From Tidjanibacter sp. (GTDB lineage: Bacteria; Bacteroidota; Bacteroidia; Bacteroidales; Rikenellaceae): a DNA stretch of 64,000 nt. Below the pieces are notes generated by a model, which was not told the origin of the DNA, made no database searches, and saw only the letters and a list, made by a program, of their open reading frames with translations. Position 1 is the first letter of the stretch, and each line of letters starts with the position of its first letter. The stretch is from NCBI GenBank assembly GCA_017936605.1, contig JAGBFH010000006.1, positions 62,001 to 126,000 of the forward strand, given 5' to 3'. Of this stretch, positions 6,704 through 14,275 are shown one piece after another. The translations under genes and the position numbers were made by a program.

Positions 6704-6871
6704 ATGAAAAAGCAAGGAAGATGTGGTTACCGCGCACCCGAAATCGCCGAGAGCGAGGTGCGTGTGGAACAGGGAATTGCGGCATCGGAGTCGATTTACG
6801 AACTGAACTATTCGGATACTCAAGGTGCTGCCGGTGATATTGAAGAAGTAATTGATGGAGGAACATTCTAA
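6704..6871 (+). CDS. Small protein (55 aa) upstream of a fimbrillin-like lipoprotein
   Basis: The ATG at 6704 opens a 55-codon frame with no signal peptide: MKKQGRCGYRAPEIAE, then SEVRVEQGIAASESIYEL, then an acidic tail ending DGGTF. Its stop overlaps the next start (TAATG at 6869-6873), so the two genes should be translationally coupled. A second small gene on the other strand at 36407-36532 has the same layout, with YxEPAIY near the start, VVVENGIAQSQS in the middle, an acidic end, and a secreted lipoprotein gene just downstream. The shared core YxxPxI...VxVExGIAxSxS supports a real protein family. Its function is unknown; a regulatory, chaperone or leader-peptide role for the lipoprotein is only a guess. 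Confidence 0.75.
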   Translation: MKKQGRCGYRAPEIAESEVRVEQGIAASESIYELNYSDTQGAAGDIEEVIDGGTF

Positions 6872-8658
6872 TGAAAAGTAAACTTTTTTTCGTGATGTTG
6901 CTGTCGGCGACGGTTGCATTCACGGGTTGTCAAAACGACGAGATTGACACTCCTAAAGAGGAAATAACCAGCAAAAAACATACTATCAAAATCCACGCGA
7001 GCAAGGGGGTAAATACCAAGACCACCGTCAGTGCAGAGGATGGAGCGTATGTTACCGCGTGGGAGAAAGGCGACCAGATATCTATTTTAGAGATGGTTAC
7101 GGGTGTGTCCACCGATTCCGAATTGGACCGATTGGAAGATATGCAAGGTTTCTACGCCTCCGCGCCTTTGGAGGAGGGTGGCCCAACGGCTACATTCGAG
7201 GCCACTTTCGATGATTACTATTGGTCCAATGACGACCTCTCGACCTATACTTTCAACTACTCCTATGTAGCAGCGACCACTCCTAACTATATGTTGGTTA
7301 CAATGTTGGACGAGAACAATGACTTATACCTCCCAGTCTACTTCCCAAGCCGACAGATCATTGGCAAGGATAGTTTCAGTACGGAGTGCGACCTTATGGT
7401 TTCCAATTTCAGCAGCGGCTATAGTTGTCGCCCCGAGGAGGTTGAGTTCCATTTTGCTCGACTTGGTTCCATTGTGAAGATAACCGTTGGCGGCCTGCAA
7501 GCGGGTGATGTTATCGATAATGGTGCTTGGTACACGGGAGATAAGTTCCTGCCAGCATTCGATATGGAGGCAGTTCTCTTCTACTATCCCGAAAAGGGCG
7601 AGTATAAATATGAGCTTCCCGAATATCTGGTGGAGATGATTACGGCCGAGAGCCACCGTGTGGAGTTTGAAGTTGATACGGAGAATCCTATTGTTGTGGG
7701 TGCAGACGGAACTGCCGACATCTATCTGAGGGCACTGCCTGGCCAAATCTCCGATTGGTTTATGTTGAGTTGTAACATTACTCGCGATGGCGAGCAGCTC
7801 ACCTACTCGAAGTATGTTTCGCTGGCCGATTTGGGTAGGTCGCTCACTTTCAAGGATAGTGGCCTGACTAAATTCTCGGTTGAGCTCAAGGAGGCAACTG
7901 TGTCCAACCCCGAGGATATTATCTATACGGTACCCAGTACGCGCGATAGCTTTATGGCCGTTTGGGAGAAGCAGGAGGGCGTGGCCAAATATGAGTGCTT
8001 CTACTCTTATGATAATTATGAAGAGGGAGAAGGCAGAGAGATAGTCGAGTTGGATTGCATTGAGCAGGATGGTATGGTATTCGTTCAGGCCGAGAACTTG
8101 AAGCCGGGTCGCTACTATCTCGGTGTGCTCGCTGTGCCCGATTCGCAGCACGGACCTATTAGCATCGGCTATAGCACGGTGGAAATCTATGTTGGTGTTC
8201 CTATGACCCTTATGTGGTACAGAGTGGAATATAACGACGGAGTGGAGTTCACCCAACTCTCAGATAGTCTATGGATGCTTGTCGAGGAGGGAAGTATGTT
8301 CCCCTGGGTCTTCGAGGTGTCGAATGTCAGGACCGAATGGGGCTGGCTTATTGGAGAGGGTCAGTGGAGCTTTGCCACCTCTTTGGAGATGCAGCATATC
8401 GGACAGCTGCAAAGTATAACGATAAATCTTTCCACCTCTGCTAATGTTCCCACTGTCTATGGCCTAACTCCAGAGGGTACAATGACAGAGATTACCAATC
8501 CCGAAGTGGTACCATCGGATGAGTACAACAACTGGTACACTTTTGACTTTGAGTCAGCTGGCTATTTCAATGGATTCAAGATTAGCGGCAGTGAAGGTGC
8601 TTCTATAACAACTTTCAATCTAAGCTACTACGCTCCCACGGGAGAAGAGGAGTATTAG
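6871..8658 (+). CDS. Fimbrillin-like secreted lipoprotein
   Basis: A 595-residue lipoprotein. The signal peptide ends in a lipobox, VAFTGC (Cys about 20). Early on it has the stretch TKTTVSAEDGAYVTAWEKGD, resembling the N-terminal strand of Bacteroidetes fimbrillin/Mfa-type proteins (T-K-T, then W..GD). Residues about 350-450 look like a fibronectin-type module, and the C-terminal region is beta-rich. It is probably exported to the outer membrane and perhaps surface exposed as a pilus component or adhesin; no enzyme motif was seen. It overlaps the upstream small-protein gene by one base. The region is more AT-rich than its housekeeping neighbours, as is common for laterally mobile surface genes. 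Confidence 0.75.
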   Translation: MKSKLFFVMLLSATVAFTGCQNDEIDTPKEEITSKKHTIKIHASKGVNTKTTVSAEDGAYVTAWEKGDQISILEMVTGVSTDSELDRLEDMQGFYASAPLEEGGPTATFEATFDDYYWSNDDLSTYTFNYSYVAATTPNYMLVTMLDENNDLYLPVYFPSRQIIGKDSFSTECDLMVSNFSSGYSCRPEEVEFHFARLGSIVKITVGGLQAGDVIDNGAWYTGDKFLPAFDMEAVLFYYPEKGEYKYELPEYLVEMITAESHRVEFEVDTENPIVVGADGTADIYLRALPGQISDWFMLSCNITRDGEQLTYSKYVSLADLGRSLTFKDSGLTKFSVELKEATVSNPEDIIYTVPSTRDSFMAVWEKQEGVAKYECFYSYDNYEEGEGREIVELDCIEQDGMVFVQAENLKPGRYYLGVLAVPDSQHGPISIGYSTVEIYVGVPMTLMWYRVEYNDGVEFTQLSDSLWMLVEEGSMFPWVFEVSNVRTEWGWLIGEGQWSFATSLEMQHIGQLQSITINLSTSANVPTVYGLTPEGTMTEITNPEVVPSDEYNNWYTFDFESAGYFNGFKISGSEGASITTFNLSYYAPTGEEEY

Positions 8659-8721: not shown

Positions 8722-10140
8722 CTATTCCACGATTCGGTGGAAGGAGGTGTCGATGTGGAAGTAGGGGCCGCCCTTGCGTCTAACGAGCGCTCGGCCGCCC
8801 GAGAAGGAGAAGGCCTCGTCGTAGAGGAAGTCGGTGTGGCGCTCGCCGTCGGTGGAGTAGTAGCCGAAGCGGCCACCGCGCCTTGCCACCACAAAGCCCT
8901 CACTCGCATCGCCCATCCAGTCGCACGCCACAGCCGAGAGTTGTCGGCCCATACGGTCGTAGAGGTGCCAACGCCCCGTGTCGTCGGCCGCCACGGCCAC
9001 ATTCTCCCCGCCATACCAGCAGAGCTGTTCCCACACATCGTTCATCACAAGGCGGCCCGAGGTGTCCACCAGACCGTAGCCGCGTGGGGTGCGGATGACG
9101 GCTCTTCCCTCCTCGAAATCGTAGGCGGCAATCACCTCGCGCTCAATCCTTAGAATCTCTCCGTCTTGGTGGGCATAGCCCCACTGGTCGCCACGCAGGT
9201 AGCGCACCATCTGGTCGCCCGCAGGCTCTACTCGCTCACAGAGCGCGAAATCCAACCTAACAAGTTCCTCCTCTTCAAGCGTAGGGGTGCCCTCGAGGTG
9301 GTAGAACTGGTGGGGCTGACGGCTTGTGAGCAGTGGGTAGAGTAGCCCGAGAGGGGCGAAACGCTCGTGGGCGAGGTGGGCTACGGCAGAGGTAATCTCG
9401 TGGTGTGAGGCTCCCGCAAGTAGGGCAGAGCAGAGGGCCGCAAGGCGCGTGGAGCCGTGGTGTTCGGCCGCCGATAGCAGGCAGCGCAGTCGCCTTTGCT
9501 CCTCGCAGGGGGAGTTGTGAGGTGAGTCGATAAGTGCCCTGTAGCCCTTCAGGTCAGAGGCCGCCACGAAGAGCAGAAGCGCCGCCCTGCCGAGGGCCGA
9601 GTGGTCGCTGCGACGGAGGGTATCCACTATCGGATAGTCCATAAGCCTAAGGTTGCAGTGTGCATCGAAGCAGATGCGAAACCTATCCAGCGAGCCGTGG
9701 TTGATGGGCTTTGCGATTGCGGCAGCGATGCTCTCAATAGCCATACGAAGGTGGGAACGATGACGGGCTGAGCAGTTGAGCCTCACAAACTCCTCGAGGG
9801 GCGTGTGGGCCTCCTGCAAGAGAGCATCGCAAGAGTGGGCTCTTGAGAGATTGTCGAAAACGATGAGTGCCTCGGGTAGGTACTCAGCCTCGGCAAAAAG
9901 AGTGTCGGAGGTGGCAATGGTACGGCAGCGCAGGGCTATCTCGCTCTTCCGGAGCGCAAAACGATTGCCGCGCGGAAGAGAGAGTGTCCAACGCTTATCT
10001 TGCCCAACAAGAGGGATGATTATCACTCCGTTGCGGCTGCAAACCCCTCTGCTTGGGTCCAGGTGGAACCCCTGGAGCCGAGTCGAAAGTTGCAGCGGGT
10101 TGCCTATGGCATCGGTGTAGGCGGTAATTGGCAGCATCAT
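8722..10140 (-). CDS. Pseudokinase-like domain fused to WG repeats
   Basis: A 472-residue cytoplasmic-type protein with no signal or membrane helix. The C-terminal third (about 315-472) holds WG-type repeats (QWGYAHQDG, RGYGLVDTSGRLV, GRFGYYSTDG). The middle part resembles a kinase C-lobe: NHGSLDRFRICF (H148-G149-S150) and LRLMDYP (D168) line up with HGDLKSENIIV and LIDCD of the kinase encoded at 10956. The catalytic Asp is Ser here, so it is probably a pseudokinase. I read this homology by eye from the adjacent genes; it is an inference. It is the last gene of a three-gene operon, starting 15 bases after the vWA gene. A role as substrate receptor or scaffold of the kinase is plausible but untested. 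Confidence 0.72.
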   Translation of the reverse strand: MMLPITAYTDAIGNPLQLSTRLQGFHLDPSRGVCSRNGVIIIPLVGQDKRWTLSLPRGNRFALRKSEIALRCRTIATSDTLFAEAEYLPEALIVFDNLSRAHSCDALLQEAHTPLEEFVRLNCSARHRSHLRMAIESIAAAIAKPINHGSLDRFRICFDAHCNLRLMDYPIVDTLRRSDHSALGRAALLLFVAASDLKGYRALIDSPHNSPCEEQRRLRCLLSAAEHHGSTRLAALCSALLAGASHHEITSAVAHLAHERFAPLGLLYPLLTSRQPHQFYHLEGTPTLEEEELVRLDFALCERVEPAGDQMVRYLRGDQWGYAHQDGEILRIEREVIAAYDFEEGRAVIRTPRGYGLVDTSGRLVMNDVWEQLCWYGGENVAVAADDTGRWHLYDRMGRQLSAVACDWMGDASEGFVVARRGGRFGYYSTDGERHTDFLYDEAFSFSGGRALVRRKGGPYFHIDTSFHRIVE

Positions 10141-10155
10141 CTCTGGGGAATTGGG

Positions 10156-11001
10156 TTAAACCATCATATCCGTACTGAGGGTGCCAATTGCAAGTAGGCT
10201 CACCAACTCACTGACGGAGGCATTTACACACATACCCCTGAATGGGGCCTCGCCGCCACGAAAATCAATTATCTCCTGATTGAAGAGTTCGGGCAGGGTG
10301 CTCGAGATGTTGTAGAGGAGTCGTGCGTGGCGATTGGTGGCCACGGGCTCACTCTCCGAGGGGAAACATATATGGGGTAGGCGGGTGGAACCCTCGGTGG
10401 CGAGCAAAATATTTATTAGGAGTGTGTTGCCGTCATTGGTATGGCAGGCTTTGAGTCTGTCTGCCAGACGGATAATCTCCTCCGCTGGAGCATCGGTGGC
10501 CTCGCCATCGGAGATGTTGATGACGATGGGTGGGAAACTCTCGGGGTGATTCTTGCACCACGAGCGACACATACGGGTGGCCATACCGAGAGCCTCGCCC
10601 ATAGGCGTGCGTCCCTTGGCCACAGGGGCTATCCAGCAGCGCCTCTCGACGATGGTCTGAAAGCTCTCGCCCGAGGGCAGAGTGCGCGATAGGATTTGGT
10701 GTTTTACGGGGGTGTCTATGGTGTTGATTTTGGCCACACTTACAAAGCCTTTGCCCAGCAGATTGCGGGCCTCTGTGCCCGAGTAGCCGATGATGCCTAT
10801 GTCGAAGTAGTCGCCCACGAAACCCTCTCTGTGGCAGTGGTTTATAATCTCCTCCAAAAGGCCGTTCAGAACATCGCAAAGAGCCTCGGCCTTGGTCGTT
10901 GTGTGACCCTCAAATGGTGCCTCCTCGGCCATCGAACCCGACTGGTCCAAGAGTATCAGAAAGGCCCCTTTGTGGGCGCGAGTAATTTGTGAATGATACA
11001 T
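10156..11001 (-). CDS. vWA domain protein (TerY-like)
   Basis: A 281-residue protein that is nearly all one von Willebrand A domain. The MIDAS metal site is complete: DQSGSM (D19, S21, S23), the Thr of GRTPMGEA (T132), and NISDGEATD (D165). There is no signal peptide, so it acts in the cytoplasm. Its start lies inside the last 46 bases of the kinase gene, indicating tight coupling. Similar vWA proteins partner kinases and PP2C phosphatases in the TerY-P triads described in work on Ter stress systems; here a kinase is present but no PP2C is encoded next door. The role is probably protein-protein contact controlled by metal binding. Confidence 0.88.
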   Translation of the reverse strand: MYHSQITRAHKGAFLILLDQSGSMAEEAPFEGHTTTKAEALCDVLNGLLEEIINHCHREGFVGDYFDIGIIGYSGTEARNLLGKGFVSVAKINTIDTPVKHQILSRTLPSGESFQTIVERRCWIAPVAKGRTPMGEALGMATRMCRSWCKNHPESFPPIVINISDGEATDAPAEEIIRLADRLKACHTNDGNTLLINILLATEGSTRLPHICFPSESEPVATNRHARLLYNISSTLPELFNQEIIDFRGGEAPFRGMCVNASVSELVSLLAIGTLSTDMMV

Positions 11002-11822
11002 AGCAGTAATTCTTCAAGATTGTCTATTCTATAGTCGTTGAGGTATAGCGAATCAAGGAGCCTCAGGAGCGCAGGCGAGGGGCCAAAAAGGGCGGCTATC
11101 TCGCCCCGCTTGTGCTCGCTTGGTAGTGCTACCATCCCTTCGCCCGTGGCGAGCGAGGGGCTCAGGTGGAGTGCTGCAAGAGAGCAGGTTATCAGTGCTA
11201 TGGCGTAGTCGTCTATGTGGCTGTCGTAGGCATCGCCACGCTCGGGGTGCATAAAGAGCGGAGTGCCCACCTCGCCGCGCCACTCGAGCCCGGGGGAGTA
11301 GAGCGCGTCGCAGTCAATGAGCGCCATTGTGCCGTCGGGCCTCACGATAATGTTCTCCGACTTCAAATCGCCGTGGCGCCACTCGCTGCTGAGAATTGCA
11401 AGTGCCAGTCGGCAGAACTCCTCGAGCAGCTGACCGAAAGCCTCACGGTCGCGGTTGTGGATGGCGCGTCGAATCTCCCTGTCGAGCGAGTGGCCCTCGA
11501 CCCACGGATAGAGCACAACATCCACATACCTGTCGCCCACCCACAGCTCCTGGGCGTAGGGTGTGGGGCGGATGATGAACTCTTGGGGCAGCAGGGAGAG
11601 GGTGTCGCACACCTCGGCCAGAAGGGGTTGTGGCCAGGTGTAACACTTGATGCCGTAGTGTCCGCCTTCCCAGAGGGCCTCAAAGACAACGGAGTGGCGC
11701 CCGCTTGTAAGGCGGAATCTGCCATCGGACTTCCTAAGGGGTTCTATTCCCTTGAGGGTACGGAACATACGGTCGTCAAAGTGGAGCGACTCAATGATGG
11801 TGTTGGTTGTAAGTCGTTTCAC
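10956..11822 (-). CDS. Protein kinase (Ser/Thr-type fold)
   Basis: A 288-residue protein kinase domain without membrane anchor or extra domains. The VAIK-type Lys appears in GIKC (K59), the catalytic loop is HGDLKSEN (D152, N157), the metal-binding DFG equivalent is LIDCD (D170), and an APE-like VGTPLFMHPE segment follows. These features imply an active enzyme, although the glycine loop near GRHSVVFE is reduced. It is the first gene of the minus-strand operon with the vWA and pseudokinase-WG genes, whose products are the likeliest partners or substrates. A possible -7 element, TACTTTCG on the minus strand near 11869, lies about 50 bases upstream but deviates from consensus. Confidence 0.85.
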   Translation of the reverse strand: MKRLTTNTIIESLHFDDRMFRTLKGIEPLRKSDGRFRLTSGRHSVVFEALWEGGHYGIKCYTWPQPLLAEVCDTLSLLPQEFIIRPTPYAQELWVGDRYVDVVLYPWVEGHSLDREIRRAIHNRDREAFGQLLEEFCRLALAILSSEWRHGDLKSENIIVRPDGTMALIDCDALYSPGLEWRGEVGTPLFMHPERGDAYDSHIDDYAIALITCSLAALHLSPSLATGEGMVALPSEHKRGEIAALFGPSPALLRLLDSLYLNDYRIDNLEELLLCIIHKLLAPTKGPF

Positions 11823-12081: not shown

Positions 12082-12112
12082 TTGCGCACTCTTTTGCTAA
12101 CCGATAATTTTG
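12082..12112 (+). promoter_or_regulatory. Promoter of the dipeptidyl peptidase IV operon
   Basis: TTG (12082-12084), 20 bases, TAATTTTG (12105-12112). The predicted start of transcription near 12119 lies after an upstream in-frame ATG at 12110, which rules that start out and supports 12137. Confidence 0.75.
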
Positions 12113-12136
12113 CAACCTGAAAACAAAGTGATAACG

Positions 12137-14275
12137 ATGAAGAGATTTGGAGTATTAGTGGCAGCTCTGTTGTTGGGCATTTCGGCATCCAACGCACAAG
12201 CAAAGTTTAGCTATGGCGACATTGCCGCAGGACGCTTTGCGCAGAAGAGCGTCTGGGGCTTGCGCTCGATGAATGATGGCGCACACTACACAACCCTCGA
12301 GGGTGGTGTGGTTTGTCGCTACAACTACGAGGGCGACCAAGAGCGCGTGGAACTGTGCAATACCCGCGAGATTGACCTCGGGGGTAGGGTGGCCGATTAC
12401 ACCTTCTCGCCCGACGAGCGAAAGATTATGTTCCGCCTGGACTCCAAACCCCTCTATCGCCGCTCCCATTTCTCGAAATATGTGGTCTATGACCTGGAGC
12501 AGAAGAGGCTCACCGATGTTGACGAGAGTAGCGAGGTGCGCTATGCAATGTTCTCGCCCGCAGGCGACAAGGTGGCCTATGTCAAGGATAACAACCTCTT
12601 TGTGAGGAATCTCGCAGGTGGTGAGTGTGTGCGTGTGACCGAGGACGGCGAGTGGAACCACATCATCAACGGTATGCCCGACTGGGTCTATGAGGAGGAG
12701 TGGGGTATCGACCACGCCTTCTGCTTCTCGCCCGACGGCAAGCAGATTGCCTTCCTCAAGAGCGACGAGAGCAGGGTGAAGGAGTTTGGCTTTATGAAGT
12801 TTCTCACCGGCACCTCCTATCCCGAGCTCTTCAAATATAAGTATCCCAAGGCTGGCGAGGACAACTCGGTAGTTTCGCTTCACCTCTACTCGCTCACCGA
12901 TGGCACCACCACAAGGGTCGATAGGAAGGGCAACGAGGATATCTACATCCCCTTCTTCGATTGGACCCCCGATGGCAGACTCTATTACTTCCAGATAAAC
13001 AGGCTTCAGAACAATCTTGAGGTCATTATGCAGCAGGGTCAGGAGCAGCAGGTTATCTACGCCGAGCAGAATCCCAAGTATATTGACGGCATCTCCAATG
13101 GTACCATCACCTTCCTTGCCGACTCGGATAGGTTTCTGGTGCTGAGCGAGCGCGACGGCTACAACCACCTCTACCTCTCCTCGGTATCCAAGGGCGGCCT
13201 CAGGGCTGTGACCTCGGGTCGGTGGAATGTGACACAGGTTGTGTGTGCCACCGATGAGCGCATCTGGTACCTCTCGACCGAGGGTTCGCCCCTGAGGAGG
13301 GAGTTCTATAGCATAGGCATTGATGGTCGCGACAAGAAGCGACTCTCGACTCTTGAGGGTACCTATAGCATCTCGCCCAGCGCGGGTTGTCGCTACTATA
13401 TCTCCTACTTCTCCAACTCCTCGACCCCCAATACGGTGACTCTCCACAGGGGTGATGGCGAGCTTATTGCTACGCTCGAGGATAACGCCGAACTGAAGGA
13501 GTATCTGGCTGAGATTCAGCTCCCCGAGAAGGAGTTTTTCACCTTCACCACTCCCCGTGGCGATGTGCTTAACGCCTATATCAAGAAGCCTGCCGACTTC
13601 GACCCCAATAAGAAATACCCTGTGCTGATTACCCAGTATAGCGGCCCCGGCTCGCAGGATGTGAGGGACCGCTGGACTATCGACTGGGAGGATGTGCTCG
13701 TTCAGCACGGCTACATCGTGGCCGACTGCGACCCCCGCGGTACGGGCTTCCGCTCGGCAGAGTTCAAGAAGAGCACCTATGGCATTATGGGTCGCCTCGA
13801 AACCGAGGACCAGATTGCCTTTGCCGAGTATCTCAAGACGCTCTCCTATGTGGACGGCGAGAGGGTAGGTATCTACGGCTGGAGCTATGGCGGCTTTATG
13901 GCACTGAACTGCATCCTCAAGGGTGCCGACACCTTCAAGATGGCCATCTCGGTTGCCCCCGTAACCTCGTGGCGCTACTACGACTCGGTCTACACCGAGA
14001 GGGTGAACGGTCTGCCCCAGACAAACGCCGAGGGCTACGACGAGCCTTCGCCCATCGGATATGCCAAGAATCTCAAGGGCAAACTGCTGCTGATGCACGG
14101 TACGGCAGACGATAATGTTCACATACAGAACGCCTACGCTATGGTGCACGAGTTCGTCGAGGCGGGCAAGCAGATAGATATGATGATCTACACCGACGAC
14201 AACCACTCGATGATGCCCTACGGCAGAGTGAATGTGAGGGAGAAGATGGTGGAGTACTGTCTGGAGAATCTGTAA
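12137..14275 (+). CDS. Dipeptidyl peptidase IV (S9B prolyl peptidase)
   Basis: A 712-residue secreted serine peptidase. A signal peptide (MKRFGVLVAALLLGISASNA) precedes a DPPIV-type beta-propeller, and the C-terminal alpha/beta hydrolase has the nucleophile GWSYGGF (Ser about 583), Asp in HGTADDNVH (about 658) and His in DDNHSM (about 692). The propeller has the DWVYEEEW stretch that binds the substrate amino terminus in DPPIV. The enzyme cuts X-Pro dipeptides from peptides in the periplasm or at the surface, feeding asaccharolytic growth. Start 12137 is chosen over 12110 because the signal peptide begins there and the promoter -7 box overlaps 12110. A TonB receptor gene follows after 27 bases. 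Confidence 0.95.
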   Translation: MKRFGVLVAALLLGISASNAQAKFSYGDIAAGRFAQKSVWGLRSMNDGAHYTTLEGGVVCRYNYEGDQERVELCNTREIDLGGRVADYTFSPDERKIMFRLDSKPLYRRSHFSKYVVYDLEQKRLTDVDESSEVRYAMFSPAGDKVAYVKDNNLFVRNLAGGECVRVTEDGEWNHIINGMPDWVYEEEWGIDHAFCFSPDGKQIAFLKSDESRVKEFGFMKFLTGTSYPELFKYKYPKAGEDNSVVSLHLYSLTDGTTTRVDRKGNEDIYIPFFDWTPDGRLYYFQINRLQNNLEVIMQQGQEQQVIYAEQNPKYIDGISNGTITFLADSDRFLVLSERDGYNHLYLSSVSKGGLRAVTSGRWNVTQVVCATDERIWYLSTEGSPLRREFYSIGIDGRDKKRLSTLEGTYSISPSAGCRYYISYFSNSSTPNTVTLHRGDGELIATLEDNAELKEYLAEIQLPEKEFFTFTTPRGDVLNAYIKKPADFDPNKKYPVLITQYSGPGSQDVRDRWTIDWEDVLVQHGYIVADCDPRGTGFRSAEFKKSTYGIMGRLETEDQIAFAEYLKTLSYVDGERVGIYGWSYGGFMALNCILKGADTFKMAISVAPVTSWRYYDSVYTERVNGLPQTNAEGYDEPSPIGYAKNLKGKLLLMHGTADDNVHIQNAYAMVHEFVEAGKQIDMMIYTDDNHSMMPYGRVNVREKMVEYCLENL

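Follow-up and report, generated by a model that had tools for sequence, protein, structure and literature searches.

A kinase, a TerY-like vWA protein and a predicted pseudokinase with WG repeats: a candidate signalling module of the Rikenellaceae

The window, meaning the whole stretch of DNA that was analysed, comprises 64,000 nucleotides of a 1.88 Mb Tidjanibacter sp. genome (G000:C17:62001-126000). Three genes lie head-to-tail on its minus strand, in the order of a protein kinase (K1), a vWA protein and a predicted pseudokinase that continues into WG repeats (PK-WG, or PK):

10956..11822, minus strand: K1, a kinase of TerY-P/STK_OB stock; GTG start, 288 aa; HGDLKSEN at H150-N157, LIDCD from residue 168, D170, K59
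10156..11001, minus strand: TerY-like vWA protein, 281 aa; MIDAS D19-S21-S23 (DQSGS from residue 19), T132, D165; PADLOC TerY match at E 3e-51
8722..10140, minus strand: PK-WG, 472 aa; predicted pseudokinase (about residues 18-261) and WG repeats (about residues 300-472)
9358..10089, minus strand: predicted pseudokinase domain of PK-WG, residues 18-261; HGS148-150 replaces HGD and Ser54 replaces the beta3 Lys
8725..9243, minus strand: WG-repeat domain of PK-WG, residues 300-472, beta-propeller-like; PF14903 at E 4.9e-11, with propeller structure matches

This arrangement agrees with a preliminary description that had placed three minus-strand ORFs here, with the vWA start inside the kinase gene. 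The vWA ATG lies 46 nt within K1 in a different frame, and the start of this gene is conserved among homologues; PK-WG begins 15 nt downstream of the vWA stop. Because homologues occur in dozens of genomes and close homologues differ mostly at third codon positions, we do not regard the three ORFs as chance reading frames. The K1 side is flanked by a DPP-IV-type peptidase gene (12110-14275), and the PK side by an ORF with no Pfam match (6871-8658), followed by genes for a DUF4293 protein and a glycosyltransferase. Pfam detected the WG repeats in PK-WG and gave only weak matches for the kinase and the vWA protein. K1 matched the PADLOC STK_OB model at E 2.6e-11 over residues 98-224, the kinase part only, and its kinase domain reaches the C-terminus with no tail beyond; its matches to PADLOC PD-T4-6 and MkoA were judged to be generic kinase matches. 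The MIDAS of the vWA protein is complete, as previously read: S21, S23, T132 and D165 are invariant among 27 homologues, and D19 is present in at least 90%. A vWA profile returned no match among PDB sequences at E 0.01.

K1 had been described as an active-looking kinase on the strength of HGDLKSEN and LIDCD, and both its relatives and its AF2 model, a kinase fold with Z 19.5 to PKR, agree with that reading. The AF2 model of PK (pLDDT 92.6) shows a full two-lobed kinase domain at residues 18-261, and its residues 20-261 align to the kinase fold (VIA Z 12.6, 229 residues, 3.9 A), with known pseudokinases among the matches listed. The earlier proposal that the WG protein contains a pseudokinase with HGS for HGD thus came through structure prediction of the 472-residue protein, although its limits did not: in place of a C-lobe alone at residues 50-210, both lobes are modelled. 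Profile comparisons point the same way: a profile built from K1 kinases reached E 2e-37 at best against the PK proteins of relatives and 7e-4 against the window PK, where HGS occupies the position of HGD, and the PK profile matched kinases of solved structure, StkP among them (E 1.5e-5).

The two proteins differ sharply in their catalytic residues. Counting non-identical sequences only, 74/76 K1 proteins and 0/74 PK proteins keep the catalytic Asp; the two groups had been told apart by profile score and not by the counted residues, two properties that are partly dependent, and gene position agrees with the assignment in the loci inspected by eye. A DFG-type Asp is present in 76/76 K1 sequences. 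Exceptional K1 motifs occur at L227 (HND) and L087 (HGN), making K1 activity uncertain in some members. The beta3 Lys is found in only 10/86 aligned PK sequences, and the glycine-loop region is lost (G41 in 13/79). Differences between close PK homologues at the three codon positions (0.24/0.18/0.44) fall mostly at third positions, indicating purifying selection and not a decaying gene. On these three lines, namely sequence, structural model and a loss of catalytic residues that is conserved across homologues, PK is a predicted pseudokinase.

Some kinase-fold proteins have atypical activities, such as the AMPylation or glutamylation seen in SelO and SidJ, and PK might likewise not be dead. Its high-confidence kinase-fold model would accommodate such an activity, as would the Asn157-type residue kept in 56/74 PK sequences and the DFG-type Asp (D168) that the window PK retains. 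The near-complete loss of the beta3 Lys, the catalytic Asp and G41 argues otherwise, however, as does a PK body that diverges fast and is shortened in some genomes, and we consider an atypical activity very improbable. The families of bacterial Ser/Thr pseudokinases reviewed in PMC12599244 similarly combine a kinase fold with lost catalytic residues; the terms Bacteroid-, vWA, TerY, WG repeat and propeller are absent from the text of that review. We found no description of the K1-vWA-PK trio in the open-access papers searched.

A survey of genomes supported the proposed conservation of the trio. The vWA gene was found in 35/36 Rikenellaceae genomes and in 0/24 genomes from other families of Bacteroidales, and K1, scored as present at E below 1e-50, occurred in the same 35 Rikenellaceae genomes. 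PK adjoins the vWA gene in 32 of these and K1 in the remaining three. The sole exception among the 36, G014 (99% complete), is without all three genes. In vWA loci from named genomes, K1, vWA and PK lie within 7 kb of one another at 63/80, several of the other 17 being interrupted by contig ends, and trio-type loci from named genomes are nearly all from Rikenellaceae (Tidjanibacter, Alistipes, Rikenella). A phylum-wide draw recovered such a vWA gene in 18/395 genomes. The neighbourhood is also maintained: the DPP-IV gene stays close to K1 in loci of the window genus, and the glycosyltransferase and DUF4293 genes stay close to PK in several loci, including some from other genera. K1 is separated from vWA and PK in several genera. 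At the Alistipes loci examined, a gene for a DUF4954/DUF6819 left-handed beta-helix protein stands between K1 and vWA (L132:5274-7001, L136:5174-6976 and others). At L053:6961-8459 (G030, a one-contig genome; matching the position of L162, Alistipes sp. dk3624), PK is divided close to the junction of its kinase and WG parts into two frames that overlap, which may reflect a frameshift or a natural split.

The preliminary description had raised the possibility of a distinct defence module, and a family-specific, undescribed defence system with the trio as sensor and effector has precedents nearby: protection against T7-like phages is described for TerY-P relatives (PMC7699616, PMC11090510), and anti-phage activity for the KKP kinase pair (PMC11341870). 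A patchy defence island would nevertheless look different: this locus is syntenic, is carried by almost all sampled members of one family and was not found in the other families sampled from the order. Nor does the trio include a gene for a nuclease, a toxin or another effector. The defence proposal is therefore not supported, and we regard it as improbable; a mobile defence island in particular is set back by the stable synteny and near-universal family presence. The same distribution speaks for a core signalling unit.

The TerY-P triad is described in PMC11090510 (citing Anantharaman 2012 and Gao 2020) as a vWA protein, a PP2C phosphatase and a Ser/Thr kinase with a C-terminal Zn ribbon or OB fold. 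The trio shares with it a TerY-family vWA protein with a MIDAS, an adjacent gene arrangement and a homologous kinase, assigned by profile and AF2 fold, with a similar N-terminal extension. It differs in having no PP2C, no TerD in the genomes searched and no OB or Zn-ribbon tail on K1, which simply ends at a point where relatives carry WG repeats, and in having WG repeats, a second kinase predicted from its sequence to be catalytically dead, and a core syntenic locus. Lacking both PP2C and the tail, the trio falls outside the TerY-P triads, although its kinase and vWA protein come from the same stock. The KKP module (kinase-kinase-phosphatase, PfkA/PfkB/PfpC; PMC11341870) is an anti-phage kinase pair and offers a second comparison, as it too has two kinase-fold proteins, both of them required together. 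Both KKP kinases, unlike PK, have HRD and DFG, and the module is prophage-borne and includes a phosphatase and a cold-shock-domain fusion; in our trio PK is without the catalytic Asp and no PP2C lies in the locus.

The trio might yet be an ordinary triad of the TerY-P type, directed against phages or stress, with a PP2C gene that lies elsewhere or escaped notice, given its PADLOC TerY and STK_OB matches and a single PP2C_2 protein on another contig (C4) of the window genome. Since the general PP2C_2 profile misses the TerY-type PP2Cs of two outside loci (L203 and L178), proteins that have no Pfam match, we retested the absence with a profile (A5) built from TerY-type PP2Cs and tested with positive controls. 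It matched 7/7 control genomes, among them G308, which had contributed to the profile, and 0/36 Rikenellaceae genomes, with none in the family neighbourhoods; in vWA loci from named genomes it found a TerY-type PP2C at L178 only, which by its title is non-Rikenellaceae. PP2C_2 proteins of any kind occur in 4/36 family genomes (G000, G002, G019, G024), and the one on C4 is not of TerY-P type. The observation that no PP2C is adjacent holds, and the proposed kinship to TerY-P without its phosphatase is supported. Together with the syntenic core locus, these results largely refute the ordinary triad, which we now think quite improbable. The PADLOC PP2C model found nothing over 60 genomes, and as the controls were silent too, it was not used as evidence. 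TerD, which would tie the trio to the ter stress genes, was found in 0/36 genomes searched (22 of the window genus), with matches in 2/14 controls. The PP2C_2 gene on C4 belongs to a row of genes (L099:1979-6445) that also encodes a lipoprotein-like ORF, a KptA/Tpt1 RNA 2'-phosphotransferase, a further ORF and another WG-repeat protein.

Outside Rikenellaceae, most of the ten loci examined consist of vWA, PP2C and kinase genes, and the kinases of these relatives keep HGD. As these TerY-P-like loci are the nearest outside relatives, we view the trio as a TerY-P-derived module without PP2C. At L203 and L178 (record named Runella) the resemblance is closer, the kinase having WG repeats beside a vWA gene, but PP2C is retained and no pseudokinase was found. 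The PK profile detected no pseudokinase body beyond the K1 and WG proteins in G308 and G062, and in G447 it gave nothing beyond weak matches to the kinase region; no locus examined contained both PP2C and PK. In a 63-row tree, whose PK branches are long and whose root is not fixed, PK formed one lineage (100/100) and the outside TerY-P-like kinases were separate (98/86), with K1 weakly supported as a single group (73/52). These sequence relationships would fit one kinase duplication before the Rikenellaceae radiation; how that duplication and the loss of PP2C were ordered we can only infer. PLD-like genes are a recurrent partner at the outside loci: at L178:5270-6451 a gene of this kind (PLDc_2) separates PP2C from vWA, and L204:6735-12225 contains a vWA gene, a TerY-type PP2C and two kinases with a PLD-like protein between them.

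Natural variants within the family bear on what PK does. In three genomes (G005, G007, G011), K1 is followed by a 298-aa pseudokinase without WG repeats, the genes overlapping by 11 nt, and the vWA gene stands alone elsewhere; both WG tails are absent and the kinase-pseudokinase pair is retained, with 78% identity in PK and 68% in K1 between two genomes compared. These pairs offer the clearest hint of an effect of the pseudokinase on K1, beyond the carrying of WG repeats. PK could instead be mainly a WG scaffold or substrate receptor, its dead body docking K1 or vWA passively while the WG propeller brings targets and K1 activity is unchanged. Within PK, conservation is higher in the WG repeats (84% identity between the window and L034) than in the kinase part (62%), so binding by WG may be the chief function of the protein, and PK in 3/35 genomes (L052, L087, L088) has lost the kinase C-lobe and consists of the N-lobe and WG repeats only, showing that the full pseudokinase body is not always required. 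The occurrence of K1 proteins with their own WG tail in other genera (43/64 loci with K1) may be read in the same way. The genomes that keep the kinase body and lose WG run counter to a passive scaffold, and we rate this account as rather unlikely. Because K1-WG is common elsewhere, the ancestral Rikenellaceae form was likely kinase-WG / vWA / pseudokinase-WG, with the window lineage having lost the K1 tail. A segment before the N-lobe is common to K1, PK and outside kinases and is a possible docking element.

Our preferred explanation, about which we are evenly poised, is a three-part signalling module from a TerY-P-like ancestor, made up of K1, a vWA adaptor and PK, a dead WG-carrying kinase duplicate that sets K1 activity. 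Its direct support comes from the gene order, the family-wide conservation, the modelled kinase folds, the kept versus lost catalytic residues, the single PK lineage and the lack of a TerY-type PP2C. In mechanistic terms, K1 would phosphorylate a protein target and PK would bind K1 through its kinase-like body. PK may then set K1 activity allosterically, either by activation, as in STRAD-LKB1, or by restraint, as exerted by JAK JH2 on JH1, thereby assuming the control that PP2C supplies in TerY-P. The vWA protein may couple the partners in a metal-dependent manner, and the WG repeats may bind a ligand and so gate the K1-PK pair. The idea that the pseudokinase could hold or activate the kinase, as the preliminary description supposed, is strengthened by the WG-less pairs; its suggestion that the WG repeats read a peptide we would keep as conjecture. 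More tentatively, the two may be a paralogous kinase-pseudokinase pair, fixed as a core unit throughout a single gut family, whose inactive member assumed the control exerted by PP2C in ancestral TerY-P; this would be a bacterial parallel, through gene duplication, to STRAD-LKB1 or JAK JH2-JH1. Natural variants by the dozens are available, with or without WG tails, with or without the C-lobe, and with vWA together or apart; with the PP2C-bearing outgroups, and in a family with cultured members, they make it directly testable whether a dead duplicate can replace a phosphatase in controlling a kinase.

Kinases and WG repeats also occur elsewhere in the window genome. A second kinase, with the motif HNDLKPEN, adjoins another WG-repeat protein on contig C7 (L100:5002-7505), and two long open frames (1245 and 1303 aa) rich in WG repeats lie at G000:C19:30521-34081 and G000:C25:15132-18362. 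Such WG-repeat giants, of 1218-1416 aa, are present in many same-genus genomes.
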